Positions 2,119 to 56,431 of a DNA stretch of 56,431 nucleotides are shown here, one piece after another. The DNA comes from Prochloron sp. SulCav_FS08_3_32_3330. Its GTDB lineage: Bacteria; Cyanobacteriota; Cyanobacteriia; Cyanobacteriales; DYNF01. The stretch spans positions 1-56,431 of the forward strand of contig DYNF01000018.1 in the NCBI GenBank assembly GCA_020721205.1, given 5' to 3'. Positions within the stretch are counted from its first letter, which is position 1, and each line of letters starts with the position of its first letter. The translations under genes were made by a program, and so were the position numbers. The notes beneath the pieces are model-generated. The model made no database searches. It was not told where the DNA came from and saw nothing but the letters and a program-made list of their open reading frames with translations.

Positions 2119-3123
2119 TTAAAAATGAATTGAGCCATCGGGCATCGTCGCCCCGGTTAAAATGGTATCCTGTAAGTCAACTCCCGTTAAGATCGCATTA
2201 CGCAAACTCGCACCAGTAAGATCCGCACCTTTTAAACAAGCACCGTCTAAATTAGTAGACCATAAATAAGCATTTCTAAGGTTAGCATTGGTTAAATTTG
2301 CCCCTGTTAAATTGGCTAAGTTTAAATTAGTATGATTGAGATCCGCTTCCTCTAACATCGCTGACGTTAGATTAGCTTTGATTAAATTTGCTTGAATTAA
2401 TTGACCACCTTTTAAATTACTATGGTTTAAATCAGCATTTTTTAAGTTAGTTAGTTCAAAATTACTCCGTCTTAATTGAGAAAAACTAAGATCCGCCCCA
2501 GTAAAATCAGACTGTTGTAATTTTGCCCCACTTAATTTAACTTCACTCAAATCCATACCACTAAAATTAATTTCTTGAAGGGTTAAACCATTTAACCAAG
2601 CACTATTAAGTTTAATTCCATTAAGTTGCGCCCCCTTAAGATTAGCACCGCTTAATCTGGCACCGCTTAAATTTGTCCAATTTAAGTTTGCTCCTTCAAG
2701 ATTCGCACAACGGAGATTAATCCCATTCAGATTCGCACCACAAAGATTAACATTGGGTAAATTTGCCCGATATAAACTTACCCAAGTTAGAATTGCACCT
2801 GTGAGAATAGCACCTTCAAGATCAGCGTGTGCCAACTGTGCGCCTTTAAGATTAGCTTTAGTTAAATCCGCTTCTATCAGTTGACCTTCCATCAATTTCA
2901 CAAAACTTAAATCTGTGCCATAAAGAAAAGAGCCATTTAAGTTAGCAGAAGCAAAAAAACATCTTTCTAAATGCGCTCTAGCTAGACTTGCATCTTGTAA
3001 TTTTGCACCCGAGAAATTAGCATTACTGAGAATTAAGCCAATTAAATTAGCTTTTTCTAAATGAGCATTTCTAAAGTCTCTTTCCCCTTTGATATATCGT
3101 TTTAAAACATCATTACCATCCAT
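2119..3123 (-). CDS. Pentapeptide-repeat protein, copy 1
   Basis: Most of the protein is A(D/N)LXX pentapeptides (ANLSG, ADLTG, ANLKG), which fold as a right-handed quadrilateral beta helix. The family includes DNA-mimic gyrase modulators and many cyanobacterial proteins of unknown role; nothing here points to one of those functions. The start chosen is ATG at 3123 (MDGNDVLKRYIKGERDF). It has GAGGGGG 7-9 nt upstream, and its N-terminus aligns with the neighbouring paralogue (MDITELLTLYQQGERDF). An upstream ATG at 3156 would add 11 residues encoded by a repeat-like sequence. No signal peptide or membrane segment. It is a paralogue of the gene at 3354-4355 across its whole length, so the pair arose by tandem duplication. 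Product 334 aa. Confidence 0.9.
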   Translation of the reverse strand: MDGNDVLKRYIKGERDFRNAHLEKANLIGLILSNANFSGAKLQDASLARAHLERCFFASANLNGSFLYGTDLSFVKLMEGQLIEADLTKANLKGAQLAHADLEGAILTGAILTWVSLYRANLPNVNLCGANLNGINLRCANLEGANLNWTNLSGARLSGANLKGAQLNGIKLNSAWLNGLTLQEINFSGMDLSEVKLSGAKLQQSDFTGADLSFSQLRRSNFELTNLKNADLNHSNLKGGQLIQANLIKANLTSAMLEEADLNHTNLNLANLTGANLTNANLRNAYLWSTNLDGACLKGADLTGASLRNAILTGVDLQDTILTGATMPDGSIHF

Positions 3124-3156
3124 AATTTTTACCCCCTCAAAAAATTTAAAATTCAA

Positions 3157-3353
3157 AATTCAAAATTGATCTGTTATAGCGCTACGCATTAAAGTTAGGA
3201 CATTATAAAATCCTAAAAGTCTTTTAGGGCTTACTTATTACTCATTACTTATTACTTGTGCGTAGTGCTATACTACCTATTTAGGACTGTTATAATTATT
3301 AACTATTAACTATTAACTATGTCTATTTATTTTGAATTTTGAATTTTGAATTG
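3157..3353. repeat. Inverted-repeat insertion between pentapeptide paralogues
   Basis: TATAGCGCTACGCA (3175-3188) and TGCGTAGTGCTATA (3259-3272) form a 14-bp inverted repeat with one wobble pair. TTCAAAA-type heptamers lie at both outer edges (about 3150-3168 and 3334-3352) in opposite orientation, and AACTATT heptamers lie near 3300-3320. The spacer between the duplicated genes thus behaves as one imperfect palindrome, probably a small non-autonomous element. Confidence 0.55.
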
Positions 3354-4355
3354 TTAATAGACTTTTCCATCGGGCATAGTTGTGCCAGTTAAATTAGCAT
3401 CGGTTAAGTTAGCCCCCGTAATATCAGCATTTCTTAAACTTGCCCTACTTAAATTTGCACCCTTTAAATTTGCCCCATCTAAAATTGCACCCCATAAATA
3501 AGCCTCTTGTAAATTTGCACCACTAAGATCCGCTCCTGTCAGATTAGCTAAATTCAAATTTGCACCTTGTAAATCCGCATTTCTTAAATCAGCTTCGCGC
3601 AGATCTGTTTTCATTAAATTAGCTTGAGCGCAATGGGAGCGATTTAATTTACTTTGAAATAAATTAGCTTGTTTTAAATTAGTATCATTTAATCTGGCAA
3701 CTTGAAGATGAGTTTCACTCAGATCCGTACCACTTAAATTTGCGCCTGTAAATTTTACGCCACTTAATTTAGCATTACTTAGATCCATGCCACTAAAATC
3801 AATTCCTTCTAAATCTAAGCCATTCATAAAAGCACTATTGAGTTTTACGCCATTTAAAATTGCTCCTTTGAGATTAGCACCACTTAACCTTGCCCCGGTT
3901 AAATTTGTCCAACTTAAATTAGCATTACTTAAATTAGCAGAGCGAAAATTAATACCGCTTAAATTTGCCCCACAGAGATTCACATTTGGTAAATTTGCCT
4001 TAAAAAAACTAACCCAAGTTAAGTTAGCACCACTAAGTTTTGCCCCGGTTAAATCCACATGATCTAATCTTGCGCCTTGAAGATTAACTTTCGTTAAATC
4101 AGCATGAAGTAATATGGCTTTTTGTAATTTAACAAATCTCATATCAGTGCCATATAAAAATGCTTCGGTTAAGTCAGTTTCTATTAGAAAACAACGACTT
4201 AGATCCGCCCTCGCTAAAGAGGCTTTTTGTAGATCCGCATTGGATAGATTAGCGTGAGAGAGTGTAACTCCAATCAAATTTGCTTCTCGAAGTTTGCACT
4301 TCTGAAAATCCCTTTCCCCTTGTTGATAAAGTGTTAATAATTCAGTAATATCCAT
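3354..4355 (-). CDS. Pentapeptide-repeat protein, copy 2
   Basis: This 333-aa paralogue of the downstream gene consists of a short N-terminal helix (ITELLTLYQQGERDFQ) followed by about 60 pentapeptide units of the A(D/N)LXX type. It ends in TTMPDGKVY, matching ATMPDGSIHF of its partner. The LPNVNLCGANL, NLSWTNLTGARLSGANLKGA and LEGIDFSGMDLS segments are shared nearly unchanged, so the two copies have kept register. No secretion signal is seen, implying a cytoplasmic location. Regular repeats also create long spurious open frames on the opposite strand. The function is unknown; a gyrase-protecting or scaffolding role is possible from family knowledge only. Confidence 0.9.
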   Translation of the reverse strand: MDITELLTLYQQGERDFQKCKLREANLIGVTLSHANLSNADLQKASLARADLSRCFLIETDLTEAFLYGTDMRFVKLQKAILLHADLTKVNLQGARLDHVDLTGAKLSGANLTWVSFFKANLPNVNLCGANLSGINFRSANLSNANLSWTNLTGARLSGANLKGAILNGVKLNSAFMNGLDLEGIDFSGMDLSNAKLSGVKFTGANLSGTDLSETHLQVARLNDTNLKQANLFQSKLNRSHCAQANLMKTDLREADLRNADLQGANLNLANLTGADLSGANLQEAYLWGAILDGANLKGANLSRASLRNADITGANLTDANLTGTTMPDGKVY

Positions 4356-5916: not shown

Positions 5917-6042
5917 AATATTTATATTATGTCATTGAGTGTAAACTTAATGTCTTGACCCAACCTGAAAATCTCCAATATTTTAACATTTTGTTACATA
6001 AGTCTTAAGATCAGAACATTTTGATCCGCTTTAATCCCCCAA

Positions 6043-6207
6043 GGCGTTTTCATTTTTTTTCCCAACGGGTTAAAACCCGTTGCTACCCAAACAAAACCAC
6101 GGGCGACCCGGGTTTTAGGATTAAATATTAACTAATATTTAATTAAATCAACCTGCGTATGCCTGTTTTGCTTATGTAGCAACGGGTTTCAACCCGTTGC
6201 TTTTTTT
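6043..6207 (+). mobile_element. MITE-like element, family A copy 1 (right end lost)
   Basis: It starts GGCGTTTTCATT. It contains the hairpin AACGGGTTAAAACCCGTT (6064-6081), a second hairpin in aaaaccacgggcgacccggg, and a terminal hairpin with arms GCAACGGGTT / AACCCGTTGC (6179-6200). The right terminal repeat GAATGAAAACGCCC is missing; the element stops directly at the lpxA stop codon (6209-6211). It occupies most of the apcD-lpxA spacer. The remaining bases 5917-6042 show nothing recognisable. Confidence 0.85.
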
Positions 6208-6208
6208 G

Positions 6209-7000
6209 CTAATAAGATTTTTTCCCCGGAATAATACCCCTACGTCCCTGAGAAATTGAACCTTCAATAAATTCATATAAATGCCTAATATAACTATTAG
6301 TTTCTTGATTTTTTAACGTAAAAAGTGCTGATGTAAAACTTAAATCTGAATGATAAAGAAGACGAAAAGCATCCTTTAAACTTTTCATTTCTTCTGAAGT
6401 TAAACCAGCCCGTTTTAAGCCAATTAAATTAAGAGATCTTACCCTTGAAGGATTACCTTCCACTAACATATAAGGAGGCACATCACGCTCAATCCGACTC
6501 ATTCCTCCCAACATTGCCATCGTACCAATATGAACAAATTGATGTACTCCTAACATTCCCCCAATCACCGCTTTACTTTCAATTTCTACATGACCTGCTA
6601 AAGCCACATTATTAGCAATAACAATATTATTTTCTAATTGACAATTATGTGCCACATGAACATAAGCCATTAATAAATTATTATCCCCAATTTTCGTAAT
6701 TTCACCCTCCTCCGTAGCCCGATTAATCGTAACATATTCCCTAATGGTATTATTATTACCAATCACCACCTTACTTTTCGCCCCTTTATATTTTAAATCT
6801 TGAGGTTGTAAACCGATCGCGCTCCCCGGAAAAATGCGATTATTTTCACCAATTTCCGTTAAACCATCAAGAATAACATGAGTGCCAATAGTAGTATTAG
6901 CACCAATTTTCACTCCTTCACCAATCACCGCATAAGGAGCAATTTCTACGGAAGGATCAATTTGAGCTTGAGGATGAATAATCGCAGTAGAATGAATCAT
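6209..7000 (-). CDS. lpxA: Acyl-ACP--UDP-N-acetylglucosamine O-acyltransferase
   Basis: LpxA transfers a 3-hydroxyacyl chain from acyl carrier protein to the 3-OH of UDP-GlcNAc, the first step of lipid A synthesis, in the cytoplasm. The 263-aa protein has N-terminal hexapeptide repeats (IHPQAQIDPSVEIAPYAVIG) forming a left-handed beta helix. The catalytic His lies in AYVHVAHNCQLEN, and a C-terminal helical domain starts near residue 190 (VRSLNLIGLKRAGLT). Length equals that of the E. coli enzyme. It is the last gene of the minus-strand series bamA-lpxC-fabZ-lpxA. The family A element copy 1 abuts its TAG stop. The gap to fabZ is filled with heptamer repeats. Confidence 0.96.
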   Translation of the reverse strand: MIHSTAIIHPQAQIDPSVEIAPYAVIGEGVKIGANTTIGTHVILDGLTEIGENNRIFPGSAIGLQPQDLKYKGAKSKVVIGNNNTIREYVTINRATEEGEITKIGDNNLLMAYVHVAHNCQLENNIVIANNVALAGHVEIESKAVIGGMLGVHQFVHIGTMAMLGGMSRIERDVPPYMLVEGNPSRVRSLNLIGLKRAGLTSEEMKSLKDAFRLLYHSDLSFTSALFTLKNQETNSYIRHLYEFIEGSISQGRRGIIPGKKSY

Positions 7001-7004
7001 TTTC

Positions 7005-7186
7005 AGTTGATAATTGATAGTGGATAGTGGATAGTGGATAGTGGATAATTGATAGTTGATAGTGGATAATTGATAGTGGATAATTGATAATAGTTGATAG
7101 TGGATAGTTAAAAGTTCATACTAATGACAAAAGACACATGACAAATGACACATGACAAATGACAAATGACCAATAACAAATGACAA
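7005..7186. repeat. STRR arrays between fabZ and lpxA
   Basis: Two heptamer arrays adjoin. GATAGTG/GATAATT units run at about 7008-7110, and TGACAAA/TGACACA units at about 7124-7184. They fill the whole intergenic region between the lpxA start and the fabZ stop. Confidence 0.85.
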
Positions 7187-7654
7187 TTAATCAATTAAAG
7201 AAAATAACATTTCTCCTTGTACAACTCTTTGATTATCTACAGTGCCTTCCCCCTTCATTTTAGCAATTCTTTGACGTTTGATCGTTAATAATTCCACCGT
7301 CATAATTAATTGATCTCCGGGGATTACAGGGCGACGAAATTTAACTTGATCAATACCTGCAAAAGCAAAAAATTTACCTTCAAATCCGGGCATTTGAGTT
7401 AAAATAATACCCCCGACTTGTGCCATCGCTTCAATAATTAAAACTCCCGGCATTAAAGGATGACCCGGAATATGACCGGGGAAAAAAGGCTCATTATAAG
7501 TCACATTTTTTAAGCCTACCACTTTTTTACCCGGGACATAATCAAGAATCCGATCTACTAAAGCAAAAGGAAAACGATGAGGCAATAATTTATGGATTTC
7601 TTGAATATTAAAAGTAGTTTGAATGGGACTTGTTTCTTCAGAAATATTAGACAT
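7187..7654 (-). CDS. fabZ: 3-hydroxyacyl-[ACP] dehydratase
   Basis: FabZ dehydrates 3-hydroxyacyl-ACP to trans-2-enoyl-ACP in fatty-acid elongation and competes with LpxA for hydroxyacyl-ACP, which explains their linkage. The hot-dog fold signature is clear. [15 protein letters not shown] is followed by [23 protein letters not shown], carrying the catalytic His (first FPGH) and Glu (IIEAMAQ). The 155-aa length is typical. It sits between lpxC and lpxA in the conserved order, although here repeats widen both spacers. Confidence 0.96.
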
Positions 7655-8878: not shown

Positions 8879-9186
8879 TGAGTTGATAGTTGACAGTTGA
8901 CAGTTGACAGTTAATAGTTAATAGTTAACCAGCAAGATGCTTGTATGACTAATGACTAATGACTAATGACAAATAACTAAATTGAGTTGATAGTTGATAG
9001 TTGATAGTTGACAGTTAATAGTTAATAGTTAATAGTTAACCAGCAAGATGCTTGTATTACTAATGACAAATGACCAATGACAAATGACCAATGACAAATG
9101 ACCAATGACAAATGACTAATGACCAATGACCAATGACAAATGACCAATGACAAATGACAAATGACAAATGACCAATGACAAATGAC
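8879..9186. repeat. Compound STRR block between bamA and lpxC
   Basis: A unit made of GTTGATA/GTTGACA heptamers, GTTAATA heptamers and the unique string ccagcaagatgcttgta occurs twice, at about 8879-8947 and 8978-9057. Each is followed by TGACTAA/TGACAAA heptamers. The second copy extends as TGACCAA/TGACAAA to the bamA stop. The inner AAGATGCTT is palindromic. This block occupies the whole 314-bp spacer. Confidence 0.85.
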
Positions 9187-9189
9187 GAT

Positions 9190-11259
9190 TTAAAATCTTT
9201 CACCGATGCCAAAATGAATTTTACTGTCACCAGCCTCATTTAAAGCATAGTCTACCCGAATCGGACCTAAAGGAGATTGGATTCGTACCCCTAAACCATA
9301 ACCAAAAGCATCGCCGGGTTTATTCCGCACTCCGGCAGGATTTCCGGGTACACTATCCCCAGTACCAAGATCCGTACCATAATCCATAAATAAAGCCCCC
9401 CCAATCACAGAAAACAGAGGAAAACGATATTCCGCCGTTGCCTGTAAATAAGAGCGTCCACTACCCACATCACCCTCCTCATAACCTCGGATCGAGTTGC
9501 TACCTCCAAGGGAAAAGGCTTCATAAGGCGGTAAATCCCCAATAATTGTTCCAGCTTGGATATTAAAAGCAATAGTTTGCGCTCCCTCACTTAATTTGAG
9601 ATATTCCACCGGAATATAATAACTATAACTACCTCGGATCCGGTTTAATAAAATACTACCTCCGCCAAAAGGTACAGTTTGTTCCATTCCTACCCGCAAT
9701 AAAGAACCACTGGTAGGCTGTAAAGCGTCATTACGACGATCTCGACTTGCCCCAAACTGTAAAGTAATTAAATCATCAATCCCATCCTCACTAAAACTGA
9801 GGGAATTTCCTAAAGCATCTACAGGGCTAGTATTACCATCCGCATCGGTGATTTCTACCCTTTGATATTCTAAACCCGTAGAAAAACGCCAATCCGCTTT
9901 TTCAAAAGGATTTGCGGGGAAAGGACGGGCAAAACTAATACCTCCCCCAGTGCGCACAATCCGGGGGCGATCGCCATTGGCTAAATCTATTTCTGGATTA
10001 CCATTATCAAAAATAAAGGAAATGGAACGGCTACGGAATAAATTTGCAGTATAAGAAGTACGGTAGGGATCCCCACCGATCCAAGGGTCTGTAAAACTTA
10101 AATCAAATAATAATTCATCTATCCCTAACTGTACTTCCCCCCCTAAAATTTGATTATTACCCCCCAAATTTTTCTGTTGATAACTCACCGTACCGAAAAG
10201 TCCACTAGCGGAACTAATCCCCGCCCCTGCCGCTAAAGAGCCTGTATTCCCTTCTACTACATCCACATTCACTACGACTTTACTAGGATCTTCCCCCGGA
10301 CTAAAAGATAAACGTACATCATCAAATAAACCTAGTCCGAAAACCCGTTGTAAATCTCTTTGAGCCATATTCCGGTTAAAAATATCCCCGGATTTTAATT
10401 CCACTTCCCTCGTAATAATAAAATCTTTTGTAACTCCTTCCACTTCCTCATCATTTTCATCAAAATATCTAACTTTAATATTTTCTACCACTCCTTCGGC
10501 AATAATTAAAGTAACTACTCCATCATCGGAAATTTCTGGAGAACCTACTACCTGAGCTAAATCATAACCTTGATCCGTATACCATTGATTTAAAGTTTTA
10601 ATATCCTCTTGTAAATCTTTTAAATTAAGAATTTTGCCATAATTATCGCCAAAAATTTCCTCTACCACTTCTTCGGGCAACACTGAATTTTCCGTACTAG
10701 GCGGAATATGTTGCACATCTACCTTCGTTAAAACAGGATTGGGATCCACTTGAAAAGTTACTCTTACCCCTAACTCCGTATCTTCAGGAATTACCGTTAC
10801 ATCAGCAAATAAACCTGTTTCATACACCGCATTAACATCCCCTTGTAACTGAGTACGAGTAGTTTCCATTCCGGGGCGTGTTTCAATGGTATTGAAGATC
10901 AGATTTTCCAACTCTGGATCTAATTCCCCTGTTTTTTGTTTAACGACTATTTCCGCTACTAATACCCTTGGCTCGGATGTCTCATTTTGAGTAATAACTG
11001 TTCCCGAAGTATCAGAAGTTGGTACAGTAGGCTCAATTGCGATGAAAGAAAAGTTTTGTTTTAACGATTCTTCCTCCGTAGGCACAGAAAGTTCTTGAAA
11101 ATTAGCAGAAGGTATCTCTAAAGTTTGAGTAACACTTGAGGGATCTTCAAGGATTTCAGCAAAAGTCGGTTGAAACTCCACTAAGGGACTTAAAACCGCT
11201 AGAATCGTCACCATGACAGGAGTTAAAGGCAATTTCTTAGATTTCTTAGGCACGTCCAC
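9190..11259 (-). CDS. bamA: Outer-membrane assembly factor, Omp85/BamA family
   Basis: Cyanobacterial Omp85 inserts beta-barrel proteins into the outer membrane and is the relative of chloroplast Toc75/OEP80. The 689-aa precursor has a signal-like N-terminus (residues 12-34). A proline/threonine-rich linker follows, then three POTRA-type domains at about 97-180, 180-265 and 265-340. The C-terminal 16-stranded barrel carries the conserved loop-6 motif SIRGYEEGDVGSG and ends in an aromatic residue (GIGERF), as outer-membrane barrels do. It lies upstream of lpxC-fabZ-lpxA, the usual envelope cluster order. Three rather than five POTRA domains is normal in cyanobacteria. Confidence 0.95.
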   Translation of the reverse strand: MDVPKKSKKLPLTPVMVTILAVLSPLVEFQPTFAEILEDPSSVTQTLEIPSANFQELSVPTEEESLKQNFSFIAIEPTVPTSDTSGTVITQNETSEPRVLVAEIVVKQKTGELDPELENLIFNTIETRPGMETTRTQLQGDVNAVYETGLFADVTVIPEDTELGVRVTFQVDPNPVLTKVDVQHIPPSTENSVLPEEVVEEIFGDNYGKILNLKDLQEDIKTLNQWYTDQGYDLAQVVGSPEISDDGVVTLIIAEGVVENIKVRYFDENDEEVEGVTKDFIITREVELKSGDIFNRNMAQRDLQRVFGLGLFDDVRLSFSPGEDPSKVVVNVDVVEGNTGSLAAGAGISSASGLFGTVSYQQKNLGGNNQILGGEVQLGIDELLFDLSFTDPWIGGDPYRTSYTANLFRSRSISFIFDNGNPEIDLANGDRPRIVRTGGGISFARPFPANPFEKADWRFSTGLEYQRVEITDADGNTSPVDALGNSLSFSEDGIDDLITLQFGASRDRRNDALQPTSGSLLRVGMEQTVPFGGGSILLNRIRGSYSYYIPVEYLKLSEGAQTIAFNIQAGTIIGDLPPYEAFSLGGSNSIRGYEEGDVGSGRSYLQATAEYRFPLFSVIGGALFMDYGTDLGTGDSVPGNPAGVRNKPGDAFGYGLGVRIQSPLGPIRVDYALNEAGDSKIHFGIGERF

Positions 11260-11351
11260 ACACCAAAATAAAGGTCAAGTTAAAATTTAGAATAAAAATT
11301 TGTAATTTTTAGATCTGTGTAATCTATCTGATCACAGAATCGGTACTTATC

Positions 11352-11475
11352 ATTGGTCAGTTGTCATTGGTCATTGGTCATTGGTCATTGGTTATTTGTC
11401 ATTGGTTATTTGTCATTGGTCATTGGTCATTTGTCATTGATCACTGGTAACTGGTAACTGGTAACTGGTAACTGC
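11352..11475. repeat. STRR array upstream of bamA
   Basis: Heptamers TTGGTCA, TTGGTTA and TTTGTCA are followed by ACTGGTA units. TTGGTCA is one of the classical cyanobacterial STRR heptamers. The array occupies the middle of the 367-bp spacer between tyrA and bamA; bases 11476-11565 show no recognised feature. Confidence 0.85.
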
Positions 11476-12466: not shown

Positions 12467-12479
12467 AGTTAGTTACTTG

Positions 12480-12560
12480 TTTGTTGTTGGGCTTCAGCCC
12501 TAATCAGGTTTGTAGTTGGGCTTCAGCCCTAATCAGGTTTGTAGTTGGGCTTCAGCCCTA
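12480..12560. repeat. Tandem 29-bp R2 repeats
   Basis: About 2.8 direct copies of a 29-bp unit, each containing the palindrome GGGCTTCAGCCC and the flank gtttgtagtt, lie upstream of tyrA. The last copy is interrupted by family A copy 2. Too few copies and no unique spacers, so not a CRISPR array. Confidence 0.75.
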
Positions 12561-12742
12561 GGGTGTTTTCATTCTTTTTTTTCAACGGGTTAAAACCCGT
12601 TGCTACCCAAACAAAACCCGTCTTTACGGGTTATATAATTAAATATTAACTAATATTAAAAAATTAAACCTGCGTATGCCTGTTTTGCTTATGTAGCAAC
12701 AGGTTTCAACCTGTTGCTTTTTGGAGAATGAAAACGCCCTGC
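12561..12742 (+). mobile_element. MITE-like element, family A copy 2
   Basis: A complete element, from GGGTGTTTTCATTC to GAATGAAAACGCCCTGC. Internal hairpins are AACGGGTTAAAACCCGTT, ACCCGTctttACGGGT, CCTGCgtatGCCTG (imperfect), and GCAACAGGTT/AACCTGTTGC with matched changes in both arms. TTCAGCCCTA is repeated on both sides (12551-12560 and 12743-12752), consistent with a target-site duplication. The target is an R2 palindrome. Confidence 0.88.
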
Positions 12743-12797
12743 TTCAGCCCTACTAGGTTTCCCTATTAATTTTTAGCGCTAAAGCGCAACAACGAAC

Positions 12798-14348: not shown

Positions 14349-14447
14349 ATAGCCCTACACAGAAAAGTCTAACTAATAATTAATCATAATAGTGTTTTCG
14401 TCAATTCTCCTCCTCATTAGTTATTACTCATTACTAGACTTCTGTAA
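14349..14447. repeat. Dispersed repeat R3, copy split by family A copy 3
   Basis: This is the reverse-complement relative of 5151-5268. It shares the strings AGTCTAACTAATAATTAAT, ATAATAGTGTTTTCGTCAA and TTCTCCTCCTCATTAG. Its palindrome GACTTCTGTAA... resumes at 14617-14632 after the inserted element. The remainder of the 443-bp spacer (14187-14348) is AT-rich with TTTAGAT heptamers and no other feature. Confidence 0.7.
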
Positions 14448-14616
14448 GCAGGGCGTTTTCATTCTCCAAAAAGCAACGGGTTGAAACCCGTTGCTACATG
14501 AGCAAAACCTGCCTACGCAGGTTGAATTTTTTTAATATATAACCCGGGTCGACGGGTTTTATTTGGGTAGCAACAGGTTTTAACCTGTGGTCAAAAAAAG
14601 AATGAAAACGCGCTGC
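14448..14616 (-). mobile_element. MITE-like element, family A copy 3
   Basis: A complete element in the reverse orientation. Ends are GCAGGGCGTTTTCATTCT and AGAATGAAAACGCGCTGC. The hairpins have arms GCAACGGGTT/AACCCGTTGC, AACCTGC/GCAGGTT, ACCCG/CGGGT, and GCAACAGGTT/AACCTGTGG. TTCTGTAA flanks both sides (14440-14447 and 14617-14624). Removing the element and one flank restores the palindrome seen uninterrupted at 5154-5170. Confidence 0.9.
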
Positions 14617-14629
14617 TTCTGTAAGAAGT

Positions 14630-26144: not shown

Positions 26145-26149
26145 GTTTA

Positions 26150-26253
26150 GTTTGTAGTTGGGCTTTAGCCCTAAAATCTAAACGAGGTTTGTTGTTGCGC
26201 TTCAGCGCTAAAACTAAAATATTATAAGTTTAGTTTGTTGTTGCGCTTCAGCG
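26150..26253. repeat. R2 palindromic repeats after murT
   Basis: Three R2 units in a row: GGGCTTTAGCCC, TTGCGCTTCAGCGC and TTGCGCTTCAGCGC again, each with a gtttgttgtt-type flank. The last is followed by family A copy 4. The other half of that hairpin (agggctaaagcccaactacg) resumes at 26460. Confidence 0.75.
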
Positions 26254-26263
26254 CTATTAGGAT

Positions 26264-26449
26264 AGGGCGTTTTCATTCTTTTTTTTGCAACAGATTAAAA
26301 TCTGTTGCTACCCAAACAAAACCACGGGCGACCCGGGTTTTCTGATTAAATATTAACTAATATTAAAAAATTAAACCTGCGTAGGCAGGTTTTGTTTATG
26401 TAGCAAGGGGTTTCAACCCTTTGCCTCCCGAGAATGAAAACGCCCTGCC
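26264..26449 (+). mobile_element. MITE-like element, family A copy 4
   Basis: A complete element, from AGGGCGTTTTCATTCT to AGAATGAAAACGCCCTGCC. The first hairpin arm is changed to GCAACAGATT with matching AATCTGTTGC, and the last reads GCAAGGGGTT/AACCCTTTGC, so substitutions preserve pairing. CTATTAGGAT flanks it directly (26254-26263 and 26450-26459). It is inserted in an R2 palindrome. With the R2 units it accounts for the 344-bp gap after murT. Confidence 0.9.
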
Positions 26450-34790: not shown

Positions 34791-34860
34791 TCAGGCGTTG
34801 CAGAATCAAGGGATGACAAAGCAACGAGTTTTAACCCGTTGGGAAAAAAAGAATGAAAAC
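34791..34860. mobile_element. Family A remnant
   Basis: It contains GCAACGAGTTTTAACCCGTT and GGGAAAAAAAGAATGAAAAC, the right-hand end of a family A element as in copy 5. The left part is lost or scrambled (gcgttgcagaatcaaggg). Confidence 0.7.
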
Positions 34861-45945: not shown

Positions 45946-46090
45946 GGCAACGGGTTAAAACCCGTTGCTACCCAAACAAAACCCGTCTTTACGGGTTATA
46001 TGATTAAATATTAAACCTGCGTAGGCAGGTTTTGCTTATGTAGCAACGGGTTTTAACCCGTTGGGAAAAAAAAGAATGAAAACACCCTGC
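45946..46090 (+). mobile_element. MITE-like element, family A copy 5 (chimeric)
   Basis: It starts at GGCAACGGGTTAAAACCCGT without the left terminal repeat and ends GAATGAAAACACCCTGC. The right hairpin (GCAACGGGTTTTAACCCGTT plus GGGAAAAAAAAG) is of the type normally at the other end, so this copy looks recombined. A short duplication aattgtgattagaa precedes it at 45910-45943. Confidence 0.8.
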
Positions 46091-50733: not shown

Positions 50734-51291
50734 CTATCTCAATATCATATCATACAATAGATGTTTTAAACAAAACTTATTTAAGTTATTTTTATCTATT
50801 AATATTTGACTATCTGAAACTATTAAACAAGGATAAACTGCTGTTTCCCAATCAGGATAACATAAAACTTTACAATTATGATTAGTAGGTTTAAATTTAA
50901 TCGCTAAAGCTTTGTTAACTACCGCTACTAAATCAAAAGTTTCCTGATTAAAATTAGAATTAATCGGTTTTCCTGTTTGGGGGCAAATAATTTCTAAATT
51001 AGCATTAAATAATTCTTTAAAATCTTTTGCTAATTCAAGAAATTTGATTTTTAATCTATCTTTTTCTTGTTGAATTAAATAATTATCCTCATTTAATTCT
51101 AATTGACTTTGAAATAAGAAAATGATTAAATTTTGTGGCACATTTTGCCAATTAGGTAATAATTTTTGATAATTTTTAATTATATATTCAGTAGTTTGAG
51201 TAATATATAAATGAATTTCTAAATTTGTAATTTGATCTTTAAATTTGTATTGCATTATTAATAAATTTGTTCGTGTTAAGTAGATAGTCAT
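50734..51291 (-). CDS. Unknown protein upstream of the DndD-like operon
   Basis: The protein is 185 aa, or 173 aa if translation starts at the second Met (51255, MQYKFKDQITNLEI); neither start has a clear ribosome-binding sequence. It is alternately helical and beta-like, with cysteines spread as EIICPQTGKP, NHNCKVLCYPDWE and VYPCLIVSD near residues 104-158. WETAVYPCLIV and LVAVVNKALAIKFKP might be a nuclease-like or nucleotide-binding core, but no motif is certain. Together with the 58-aa and ATPase genes it forms a minus-strand operon. Confidence 0.68.
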   Translation of the reverse strand: MTIYLTRTNLLIMQYKFKDQITNLEIHLYITQTTEYIIKNYQKLLPNWQNVPQNLIIFLFQSQLELNEDNYLIQQEKDRLKIKFLELAKDFKELFNANLEIICPQTGKPINSNFNQETFDLVAVVNKALAIKFKPTNHNCKVLCYPDWETAVYPCLIVSDSQILIDKNNLNKFCLKHLLYDMILR

Positions 51292-51310
51292 AAATATTGT
51301 TATCTATAAA

Positions 51311-51343
51311 AAAGTTCGTAGTTGGGCTTTAGCCCTTTCCGGG
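51311..51343. repeat. Left half of an R2 palindrome split by family A copy 6
   Basis: GTTCGTAGTTGGGCTTTAGC followed by CCTTTCCGGG is the left arm. The right arm resumes at 51524 (CCCTTTCCGGGGG, then AGGGCTAAAGCCCAACTACG) and ends at 51560. The uninterrupted form resembles 48357-48401. Confidence 0.8.
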
Positions 51344-51523
51344 CAGGGCGTTTTCATTCTCCAAAAAGCAACAGGTTGAAACCTGTTGCTACATAAGCAA
51401 AACCAGCTACCCGCAGGTTTAATTTTTTAATATTAGTTGATATTTAATTATATAACCCGTGAAGACGGGTTTTGTTTGGGTAGCAACAGGTTTTAACCTG
51501 TCGTAAAAAAAAGAATGAAAACG
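51344..51523 (-). mobile_element. MITE-like element, family A copy 6
   Basis: A complete 180-bp element, CAGGGCGTTTTCATTCT to AGAATGAAAACG. Hairpins are GCAACAGGTT/AACCTGTTGC, ACCCG..CGGGT and GCAACAGGTT/AACCTGT. CCCTTTCCGGG occurs on both sides (51333-51343 and 51524-51534). It sits exactly in the loop of an R2 hairpin and fills most of the 309-bp spacer of the defence locus. Confidence 0.9.
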
Positions 51524-51600
51524 CCCTTTCCGGGGGAGGGCTAAAGCCCAACTACGAACTTATTATTTTAGCACTTAAAAGCTGACAATGGTAATTTAAA

Positions 51601-53100
51601 CTAAGATAAAAAACGGTCAGTTATTTGCGATAATTGTTCAATTGCTTCTATGGAATTATAAGCTAATTTTGCAAATTCAAGAAAGCGATTTAACTCTTTT
51701 TTTAATAAGTTTTTCTCGACTTCCCATGTTATTCGATCTAAGTCAGGAGGCATCACAATCATATCATATAAAGTCGCTTTTTCTTTGTCAGGATGAGGTC
51801 TTAAAATTCGTCCTCGTCGCTGGATAAATTGACGAGGATTACCCGTACTTGCCAAAATTACAGCATTTTTAATAATCGGAATATCTACCCCTTCATCTAA
51901 ACATCTAATCGCTACTAATCCCTGTAATTCTCCTCTTTCAAATTGTTCTCGTAAACTTTCCCTTTCCTCAATCGGAGTTTCGGCTGTATAAGTATTAACT
52001 CGATAGCCCAATTCTTTACCTAAAATGCGAGTTACAGCCTCTACTTGACGAGAATAACTTTTGTCATAATTGTCCACATTTCCATCACCACAATAGAATA
52101 AAGTATGACTTTGTAATGAATCTTTTTCCATCAATTCTCTTAACGCATTTAGTTTATTTTCTGCCACCCCAATTAAACGGGATCTTTTCATTAAAAGGGA
52201 GGTTAAAGTTTCATTATTATTCATATTAGTATTTTGAGATAATGCCCAACCAATTCGTTTAGTTAATTTTGCATATAAAAAAGATTCTGATTCCGTTAAA
52301 TTAACAAAAATAGGATAATATAAATATTGAGATAAAGCCCCTTTTTCAATCGCATCTTTTAAAGTAAATTCTGGTTGTAAAATTTTACCAAAATAGTTAA
52401 AAATTAAATCCGTTCCTTCCTCATCAAAATATCTTTCTGGGGTAGCAGATAGCGCTAATCTTAAACCAATATTTCGGGGAAGACAACTTTCTAAACGGGG
52501 CGCTCCTAAATGATGTACTTCATCTCCCACAATTAAAGATTTTTCGTGAAAAAATTTAAGTTGTGTTTGAAAACCCTCGCTAATAAAGGTGGAATTTGTG
52601 GTTAAAATTGTCATAAAAGATTGCTTTTGAGAACGAATATTATATAATTGAGTAGAGAGAATATTTTGCCAATTTTGGATATTTTCAAAAGCTAAAATTG
52701 GACTTAAATTAAAATTTTCACATTCTTTTGCCCATTGATTAACTAAATGACAATAAGGACAAATTACCAATAATAATTTTAAATTAATTTGTTGATAAAG
52801 TTCCGTTGTAATCGCTAAAGCTGTGATAGTTTTACCGCTACCCGTCGCCATTTTTAATGTGCCTCTACCCTTATTTTTAAACCAGTTTAAAACTGCTTGA
52901 TGTTGATAATCTCTAAGGTTAATATTTGAAGGAAAAGTGGGAACATTAGACGGTAACGCAAAATAACAACTTTTTTGTTCTTTTAATTGATAATTAAGTC
53001 TTGTTTTTTTAGGGTAATAATTATATTTTTGACAATAAATATTAATTATATGTTGCCAATCAATGTTATAATTATCAAAAATTGATTGAGAATTATCCAT
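51601..53100 (-). CDS. SSL2-like DEAH-box helicase, putative restriction component
   Basis: The 499-aa superfamily 2 helicase has Q-like NLRDYQHQAVLNWF and Walker A KMATGSGKT (about residue 85). Box II is VGDEVHHLG, motif III LALSATPERYFDEEG, and motif VI RQFIQRRGRILRPH. It resembles the SSL2/XPB-type helicases linked to phosphorothioation-dependent restriction in cyanobacteria. There is no obvious nuclease domain, and an N-terminal ~60-residue extension contains YCQKYNYYPKKTRLNY. It is the first gene of a minus-strand series ending in the DndD-like ATPase, separated from the next gene by an inserted family A element. Confidence 0.82.
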   Translation of the reverse strand: MDNSQSIFDNYNIDWQHIINIYCQKYNYYPKKTRLNYQLKEQKSCYFALPSNVPTFPSNINLRDYQHQAVLNWFKNKGRGTLKMATGSGKTITALAITTELYQQINLKLLLVICPYCHLVNQWAKECENFNLSPILAFENIQNWQNILSTQLYNIRSQKQSFMTILTTNSTFISEGFQTQLKFFHEKSLIVGDEVHHLGAPRLESCLPRNIGLRLALSATPERYFDEEGTDLIFNYFGKILQPEFTLKDAIEKGALSQYLYYPIFVNLTESESFLYAKLTKRIGWALSQNTNMNNNETLTSLLMKRSRLIGVAENKLNALRELMEKDSLQSHTLFYCGDGNVDNYDKSYSRQVEAVTRILGKELGYRVNTYTAETPIEERESLREQFERGELQGLVAIRCLDEGVDIPIIKNAVILASTGNPRQFIQRRGRILRPHPDKEKATLYDMIVMPPDLDRITWEVEKNLLKKELNRFLEFAKLAYNSIEAIEQLSQITDRFLS

Positions 53101-56359: not shown

Positions 56360-56431
56360 GCAGGGCGTTTTCATTATCGGGAGGCAACGGGTTGAAACCC
56401 GTTGCTACATAAGCAAAACCTGCCTTCGCAG
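56360..56431 (-). mobile_element. MITE-like element, family A copy 7, cut by the window end
   Basis: It starts GCAGGGCGTTTTCATTAT, then a hairpin with arms GCAACGGGTT/AACCCGTTGC and aagcaaaacctgcc, the reverse-orientation beginning of the family. The rest lies outside the window. Confidence 0.85.

Follow-up and report, generated by a model that had tools for sequence, protein, structure and literature searches.

Insertion sequences of the ISAs1 family have CAGGG ends and are accompanied by 8-10-bp duplications of the target. MITEs have been described in Anabaena sp. 90 as short elements with inverted ends, present in many copies and mostly intergenic, and the authors, in the excerpted text of their paper, report no evident similarity between MITE ends and IS ends in that genome (PMC3542288). 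Nezha, a cyanobacterial MITE cited in an excerpt of PMC10969869, is set beside the present elements by mention and not by sequence. SaTar, non-nested arrays of Mutator-like elements, have been found in guayule and rice, and in the excerpted text their authors state that such multimers were previously undescribed in eukaryotes or prokaryotes (PMC5907723). Arrays of ISAs1-derived MITEs are not named in the titles and abstract openings of the literature that we surveyed, which is no proof of their absence, most subscription papers lying outside the survey.

The element family in the window and in its genome

The window, i.e. the whole stretch of DNA that was analysed (56,431 nt, the entire contig C17 of a 4.73-Mb assembly in 209 contigs), contains a family of non-coding elements of about 184 bp with inverted ends CAGGGCGTTTTCATTCT. 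Its 18-bp end is matched at 11 places with up to three mismatches, as against 0.04 expected from shuffles. The original prediction had listed seven copies of a MITE-like family, and all seven are present, four of them complete and three damaged or cut, together with an eighth fragment that comprises end B. The features are as follows:

51344..51528, + strand: type I element, full-length, end A on the left and end B on the right, matching the profile along almost all of its length
51333..51343, + strand: direct repeat CCCTTTCCGGG, left copy (sequence)
51524..51534, + strand: direct repeat CCCTTTCCGGG, right copy, the first 5 bp overlapping the element end and 6 bp lying outside the fixed end
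12559..12741, - strand: type I element, full-length (profile match)
12550..12558, + strand: target duplication CTTCAGCCC, B side of the 12559 copy (sequence)
12742..12750, + strand: target duplication CTTCAGCCC, A side of the 12559 copy (sequence)
14449..14615, + strand: type I element with a shorter interior, 167 bp (profile match)
14439..14448, + strand: target duplication CTTCTGTAAG, left of the 14449 copy (sequence)
14616..14625, + strand: target duplication CTTCTGTAAG, right of the 14449 copy (sequence)
26263..26447, - strand: type I element, full-length (profile match), flanked by an 11-bp repeat with one mismatch
6041..6204, - strand: type I copy, damaged, end A lost (profile match)
45947..46090, - strand: type I copy, one end lost (profile match)
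34820..34860, + strand: end-B fragment, absent from the original list (profile match)
56361..56431, + strand: type I copy, truncated where the contig stops (end match and profile match)

Inside the terminal repeat, the A end carries CTCCAAAAAGC, CTCGGGAGGC or similar sequences and the B end a run of T, and this difference allows the copies to be oriented. The four direct repeats quoted in the original prediction are all there, in a register that in part overlaps the ends of the element; once its boundaries are set to CAGGG...CCCTG, they become CTTCAGCCC (9 bp), CTTCTGTAAG (10 bp) and 11 bp with one mismatch, while the 51344 copy retains an exact repeat of 6 bp outside the fixed end, or of 11 bp if overlap with the end is allowed. 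The predicted lack of protein-coding capacity is borne out, as no ORF on 51344-51528 exceeds 35 aa; the two overlapping ORFs of at least 20 aa (24 and 35 aa) both start with TTG and extend past the element.

As single-stranded DNA, the 51344 copy is predicted to fold with -49.6 kcal/mol, while shuffled sequences average -17.8 (z -10.9). In an alignment of 72 of the 74 full-length copies described below (all but those at 14449 in the window and at L031:2450), 8 of the 13 predicted end pairs of the terminal inverted repeat are paired in every copy and the others in at least 69, and 4 of the 44 predicted pairs are changed on both sides. Two of the changed pairs (41 G-C against 31 A-U, and 56 against 16) show no intermediate. 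Selection, hairpin-templated correction or old subfamilies may each lie behind such two-sided changes. The window has no Rfam match at gathering score, and the sub-threshold matches on 51250-51620, mostly to plant miRNA precursors, were judged to be due to chance, the sequence being a long hairpin. Plasmids and phages searched with the element gave no match at E 1e-5.

The seven copies of the window belong to a genome-wide family, as a search of the genome with the 18-bp end revealed: the 18-mer has 351 matches with at most one mismatch, and its reversed control none. A sample of 936,268 bases of this genome, which includes the window and was taken mostly around end matches, contains 74 full-length copies of type I, an element of about 184 bp made of two hairpin modules that face each other. 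Not one of the 74 lies mostly inside an ORF of at least 100 aa, though such ORFs make up 77% of the sample. Among the 35 isolated copies, 17 are flanked by an exact duplication of at least 8 bp (0 of 1190 wrong pairings of flanks), and 21 by a duplication of at least 9 bp with no more than one mismatch (3 of 1190). Ten of the 17 exact duplications are 10 bp long, five are 9 bp, one is 8 bp and one 11 bp; the remaining 18 isolated copies lack an exact duplication of at least 8 bp, 13 of them having no exact repeat at all. The target duplications, predicted to be of 8-11 bp, are real, mostly 9-10 bp long, and missing at many copies. In the 15 duplications of 9-10 bp, C is the first base in 12 and G the last in 13 (each base accounts for 16% of the sample); their pairwise symmetry is not above that of column shuffles (p 0.82).

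The same ends enclose at least three different interiors in this genome. Type II (L011:2489-2807) is about 320 bp long, and type III (L108:15399-15573), of about 175 bp, is flanked by the duplication CCAGATTAAG (found by eye, in an overlapping locus, L053). The exact 17-mer end occurs in 14 of the 388 genomes of the order, this one included, with 246 occurrences here, 75 in G158, where they enclose another interior, and 7 in G006. G158 also contains another MITE-like family of 175-215 bp, bounded by CAGGGCGTTTTCAAAGT on one side and by CAGGGCGTTTTCATTCT on the other (L237, L239). A type I query of 187 bases matches at least 15 of the 388 genomes, this one again included, a count that is a lower bound, the best two candidates per genome having been scored in most cases. 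Among the matches listed, full-length homologues of type I (two places, 74%) are found only in G230, which represents another family of the same order; at one of its loci (L256) the type I interior has the ends CAGGGCTGTTTCATTCT, which are those of other ISAs1 elements. In 13 other genomes the match covers only part of the interior, and loci L257-L259 have no ends at up to four mismatches. The full-length and partial matches in other genomes indicate that the type I interior is more widely spread than the present ends, and from the single locus L256 we infer that ends may have been exchanged.

Other repeats accompany the family. A dispersed palindromic repeat of the GTTCGTAGTTGGGCTTTAGCCC type is found in the window at 12478-12554, 26149-26256 and 51313-51337, and elsewhere; such a motif is no more than 45 bp away from 22 of 59 MITE insertion loci, compared with 274 of 5000 intergenic points. 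The window also contains arrays of 7-bp units of the AATGACC and GATAGTT types (6982-7213, 8881-9222, 11330-11471), within which 9057-9190 and 11338-11471 are mutual inverted copies with 82% complementarity, and, at 2119-4355, two ORFs whose DNA repeats with a period of 15 bp and which may encode pentapeptide-repeat proteins.

ISAs1 insertion sequences as the probable parent family

We looked for ISAs1 elements because of their known CAGGG ends and 8-10-bp duplications. The ISAs1 profile NF033564 has matches in 43 of the 60 genomes searched, among which the present genome was negative: no intact ISAs1 transposase was found in its assembly with this profile, and a separate search retrieved one relic of 51 residues. 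Among 30 ISAs1 loci inspected (L060-L089), two from the same order have ends close to that of the MITE (16-17 of 18 positions shared), namely L080 (ends CAGGGCGGTTTCATTCTC, 10-bp duplication GGTTTTAACC) and L077 (ends CAGGGCTGTTTCATTCTC, 12-bp duplication), and both are ISAs1 according to NF033564 (E 4.4e-72 and 3.6e-77). L084 has ends of the MITE type on both sides and a 9-bp duplication, and L078, L082 and L083 have such ends on both sides with no duplication detected by script; many others of the 30 have quite different inner ends, e.g. CAGGGCAAACGCAT.

A further 80 ISAs1 loci were fetched from named genomes, and 28 were examined for their ends. Four of these elements, from named cyanobacteria (L155, L156, L158, L163), have 16-17 of the 18 end positions in common with the MITE. 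The MITE-type end is present in all four loci with at least 83% identity to L080 (L155-L158), and none was seen in L162 (75% identity). Both ends are of the MITE type, with duplications of 10-12 bp, in L155, L163, L172 and L175, and also in L156 and L158, where no duplication was found. The intact ISAs1 elements found end in CAGGGC[G/T]GTTTCATTCT or in more distant forms and not in CAGGGCGTTTTCATTCT, the closest differing at 1-2 of 18 positions. The original prediction had proposed to look for an insertion sequence with the same terminal repeat and 8-11-bp duplications; these ISAs1 members come close to it, and none of the loci examined is an intact ISAs1 with the exact 17-bp end.

That end, exact or with one change, does occur beside ISAs1 relics. 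In G331 a decayed ISAs1 gene, with transposase pieces 5-45, 48-80, 164-202 and 270-322 in collinear order, lies inside an end that shares 17 bp exactly with that of the MITE; the 9 kb fetched did not reveal the other end. The only ISAs1 trace found in the present genome (C4:47111-47263, residues 2-52, with stops, E 9.7e-10) is located about 100 bp inside CAGGGTGTTTTCATTCTC, which is the MITE end with one change, and the gene start in L080 lies 93 bp inside its end; only one element end was located for this relic. The DNA just inside the end is alike, by eye, in the present relic, G331, G335 and G250, and the stretches from G335 and G250 yielded no transposase piece. Two other candidates for the source were rejected. 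A PF01609 fragment of another DDE transposase (C14:12789-13043; L059, G000:C14) has no flanking pair resembling CAGGGCGTTTTC at up to three mismatches. The 17-mer CAGGGCGTTTTCAAAGT, considered as the end of an autonomous element, leads at two places into unrelated sequence, and where a second end was seen, it belongs either to type III (L108), as the opposite end of that element, or to short elements in other genomes.

The MITEs, having no coding capacity, contain no ISAs1 transposase, and we presume them to be derivatives rather than members of the ISAs1 family. To judge from the ends, duplications and relics, ISAs1 is the probable parent family. The original prediction was right, as far as these data support it, about the kind of element, a MITE, with ends and duplications that resemble those of ISAs1 insertion sequences. 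Its transposase supplied elsewhere now has a candidate parent family, and no intact enzyme was found in the genome's own assembly, so that the present mobility of the MITEs is unproven. What goes beyond the original prediction is the parent family, the variety of interiors and the arrays described below.

End-to-end arrays and the origin of the elements

At 35 places in the 936-kb sample, two outward-facing ends are joined at a distance of 4-16 bp, and at 33 of them the spacer is 8-11 bp long, as against 0.075 expected from random placement. Genome-wide, all 15 exact junctions have spacers of 9 or 10 bp, where 5-14 bp were allowed. In 18 of the 28 junctions that allow the test, the full-length spacer is identical to one or more of the flanks, and in the other 10 it matches no flank, with 5 junctions having no comparable flank; if only flanks that are not themselves spacers are counted, 16 of 34 match. 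No junctions were found in 13 other genomes, of which only G158 is rich in such ends, and there none of the exact pattern is seen. The main weakness of these observations is that draft contigs break at such repeats and that assembly could shuffle array members.

Nine of the 33 junctions with 8-11-bp spacers unite type I with type II or III; type I takes part with its A side in five of them and with its B side in four. Four of these mixed junctions have a comparable flank, and the spacer matches it exactly in two (L028, L107), at 9 of 10 positions after a one-base shift by eye in L047, and not at all in L039. The 23 junctions between type I copies are all direct and none inverted, and one of the 33 is unassigned. 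One pair, L010:17693-18069, has outer flanks that share CTACAGATG (by eye, missed by the fixed-length comparison) and a different inner spacer, as if it had moved as a unit. Two further kinds of array were observed: a four-copy array (L016:6310-7069) whose three spacers include one in the orientation opposite to that of the other two, and tandem arrays of MITE interior with a period of about 150 bp and no terminal repeats (L022:1-571, L015:12074-12542), which, at a guess, are decayed arrays that have lost the end-spacer-end palindrome.

We propose, with a probability of about 0.87, that the elements are MITEs moved in trans by a transposase of the ISAs1 family, and that non-nested arrays are built when a target is hit again, some of them also by local duplication. 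The transposase would recognise ends of the CAGGGCGTTTTC(ATTCT) type and cut the target with a 9-10-bp stagger, usually with C at the start and G at the end. Insertion would leave two copies of the target, so that the same site could be hit again, and the new copy would then be separated from the old one by the target alone, so that non-nested and sometimes mixed arrays would result. Some arrays would be enlarged by local duplication, and the L010 pair may have moved as a unit.

The arrays can also be explained mainly by local duplication, with the 9-10-bp duplications as the sites of slippage or unequal crossing over and with divergence or gene conversion as a later step; the dispersed copies would then be ordinary MITE insertions. 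We regard this as a doubtful account of the arrays as a whole, if one with a substantial minority chance of being correct. The same-type junctions, direct in 23 of 23 cases, agree with it, although inverted pairs of one type would form large palindromes and may simply be lost. Neighbours of the same type have a mean identity of 0.940, or of 0.932 once the two pairs above 0.98 are left out, compared with 0.885 for other pairs (in both cases 0 of 5000 random samples reach the value), a neighbour has a median rank of 6 among 73 copies, 6 of 30 members have their neighbour as the closest copy, and the same defect recurs in successive units of L030, L022 and L015:12074. This greater likeness of same-type neighbours implies that local duplication, with or without conversion, also contributes. 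On the other hand, of the 15 same-type neighbour pairs that were aligned, 13 have one or both members, and 10 have both, closer to a copy at another locus, in what is a best-of-many comparison, while two pairs are clearly mutual closest relatives; and the nine mixed-type junctions, which join different elements, favour repeated insertion at one site. The arrays are thus best seen as a mixture, in which the mixed junctions require that one target was hit repeatedly and local duplication probably explains part of the rest.

Very improbable, in our judgment, is that the hairpin module is a REP/RAYT-type palindrome mobilized by a Y1 tyrosine transposase, with ends that are incidental. Interior pieces without ends in the present genome, the 13 genomes of the order that match part of the interior only, with the end-less loci L257-L259, and the 22 of 59 insertion loci near another palindromic repeat (274 of 5000 intergenic points) would all fit this idea, but the conserved inverted ends with 9-10-bp duplications at their outer sides disfavour it, and the same ends are shared by unlike interiors. 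To our knowledge, Y1 transposases make no target duplication. Even less credible is that homologous recombination or segmental duplication spread the intergenic DNA without transposition: some arrays have unlike outer flanks (L017, L010:5917), as if they had recombined, but matched short duplications within different flanks (17 of 35, against 0 of 1190) refute it as the main cause.

Comparison with described systems

An abundant cyanobacterial MITE family is here linked to a named transposase family, and the building of arrays by repeated targeting of one short site becomes testable in a bacterium. The same interior with two end variants in two families of the order provides a way to ask how MITEs track their transposases.

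The ISAs1 insertion sequences (NF033564; PF13808 + PF01609) resemble the MITEs in their CAGGG ends, in 16-17 of 18 end positions for the closest members, and in duplications of 9-12 bp where these are present; they differ in that the MITEs have about 184 bp and no transposase, and that intact ISAs1 have the CAGGGC[G/T]GTTTCATTCT or more distant ends. The MITEs of Anabaena sp. 90, likened here by the description in the excerpted text and not by sequence, agree with the present ones in size class, inverted ends, abundance and mostly intergenic position, but for the present MITEs an ISAs1 type with near-identical ends is available. The likeness to SaTar, as described in the excerpted text (PMC5907723), lies in uninterrupted, partly unrelated non-autonomous elements placed end to end and in duplications of 9-10 bp; the difference is that SaTar occur in plants and comprise Mutator-type elements with microsatellite spacers, whereas here the host is a bacterium, the ends are of the ISAs1 type and the spacers have the length of the target duplication. 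By analogy, a single transposition system of this bacterium may re-use the same 9-10-bp target beside existing copies and so build in-register arrays of unrelated miniature elements, some moving as composites. We offer this tentatively, at slightly less than even odds, which were lowered because the likeness between same-type neighbours exceeds that of random pairs; if correct, it would make these arrays a prokaryotic counterpart of SaTar.
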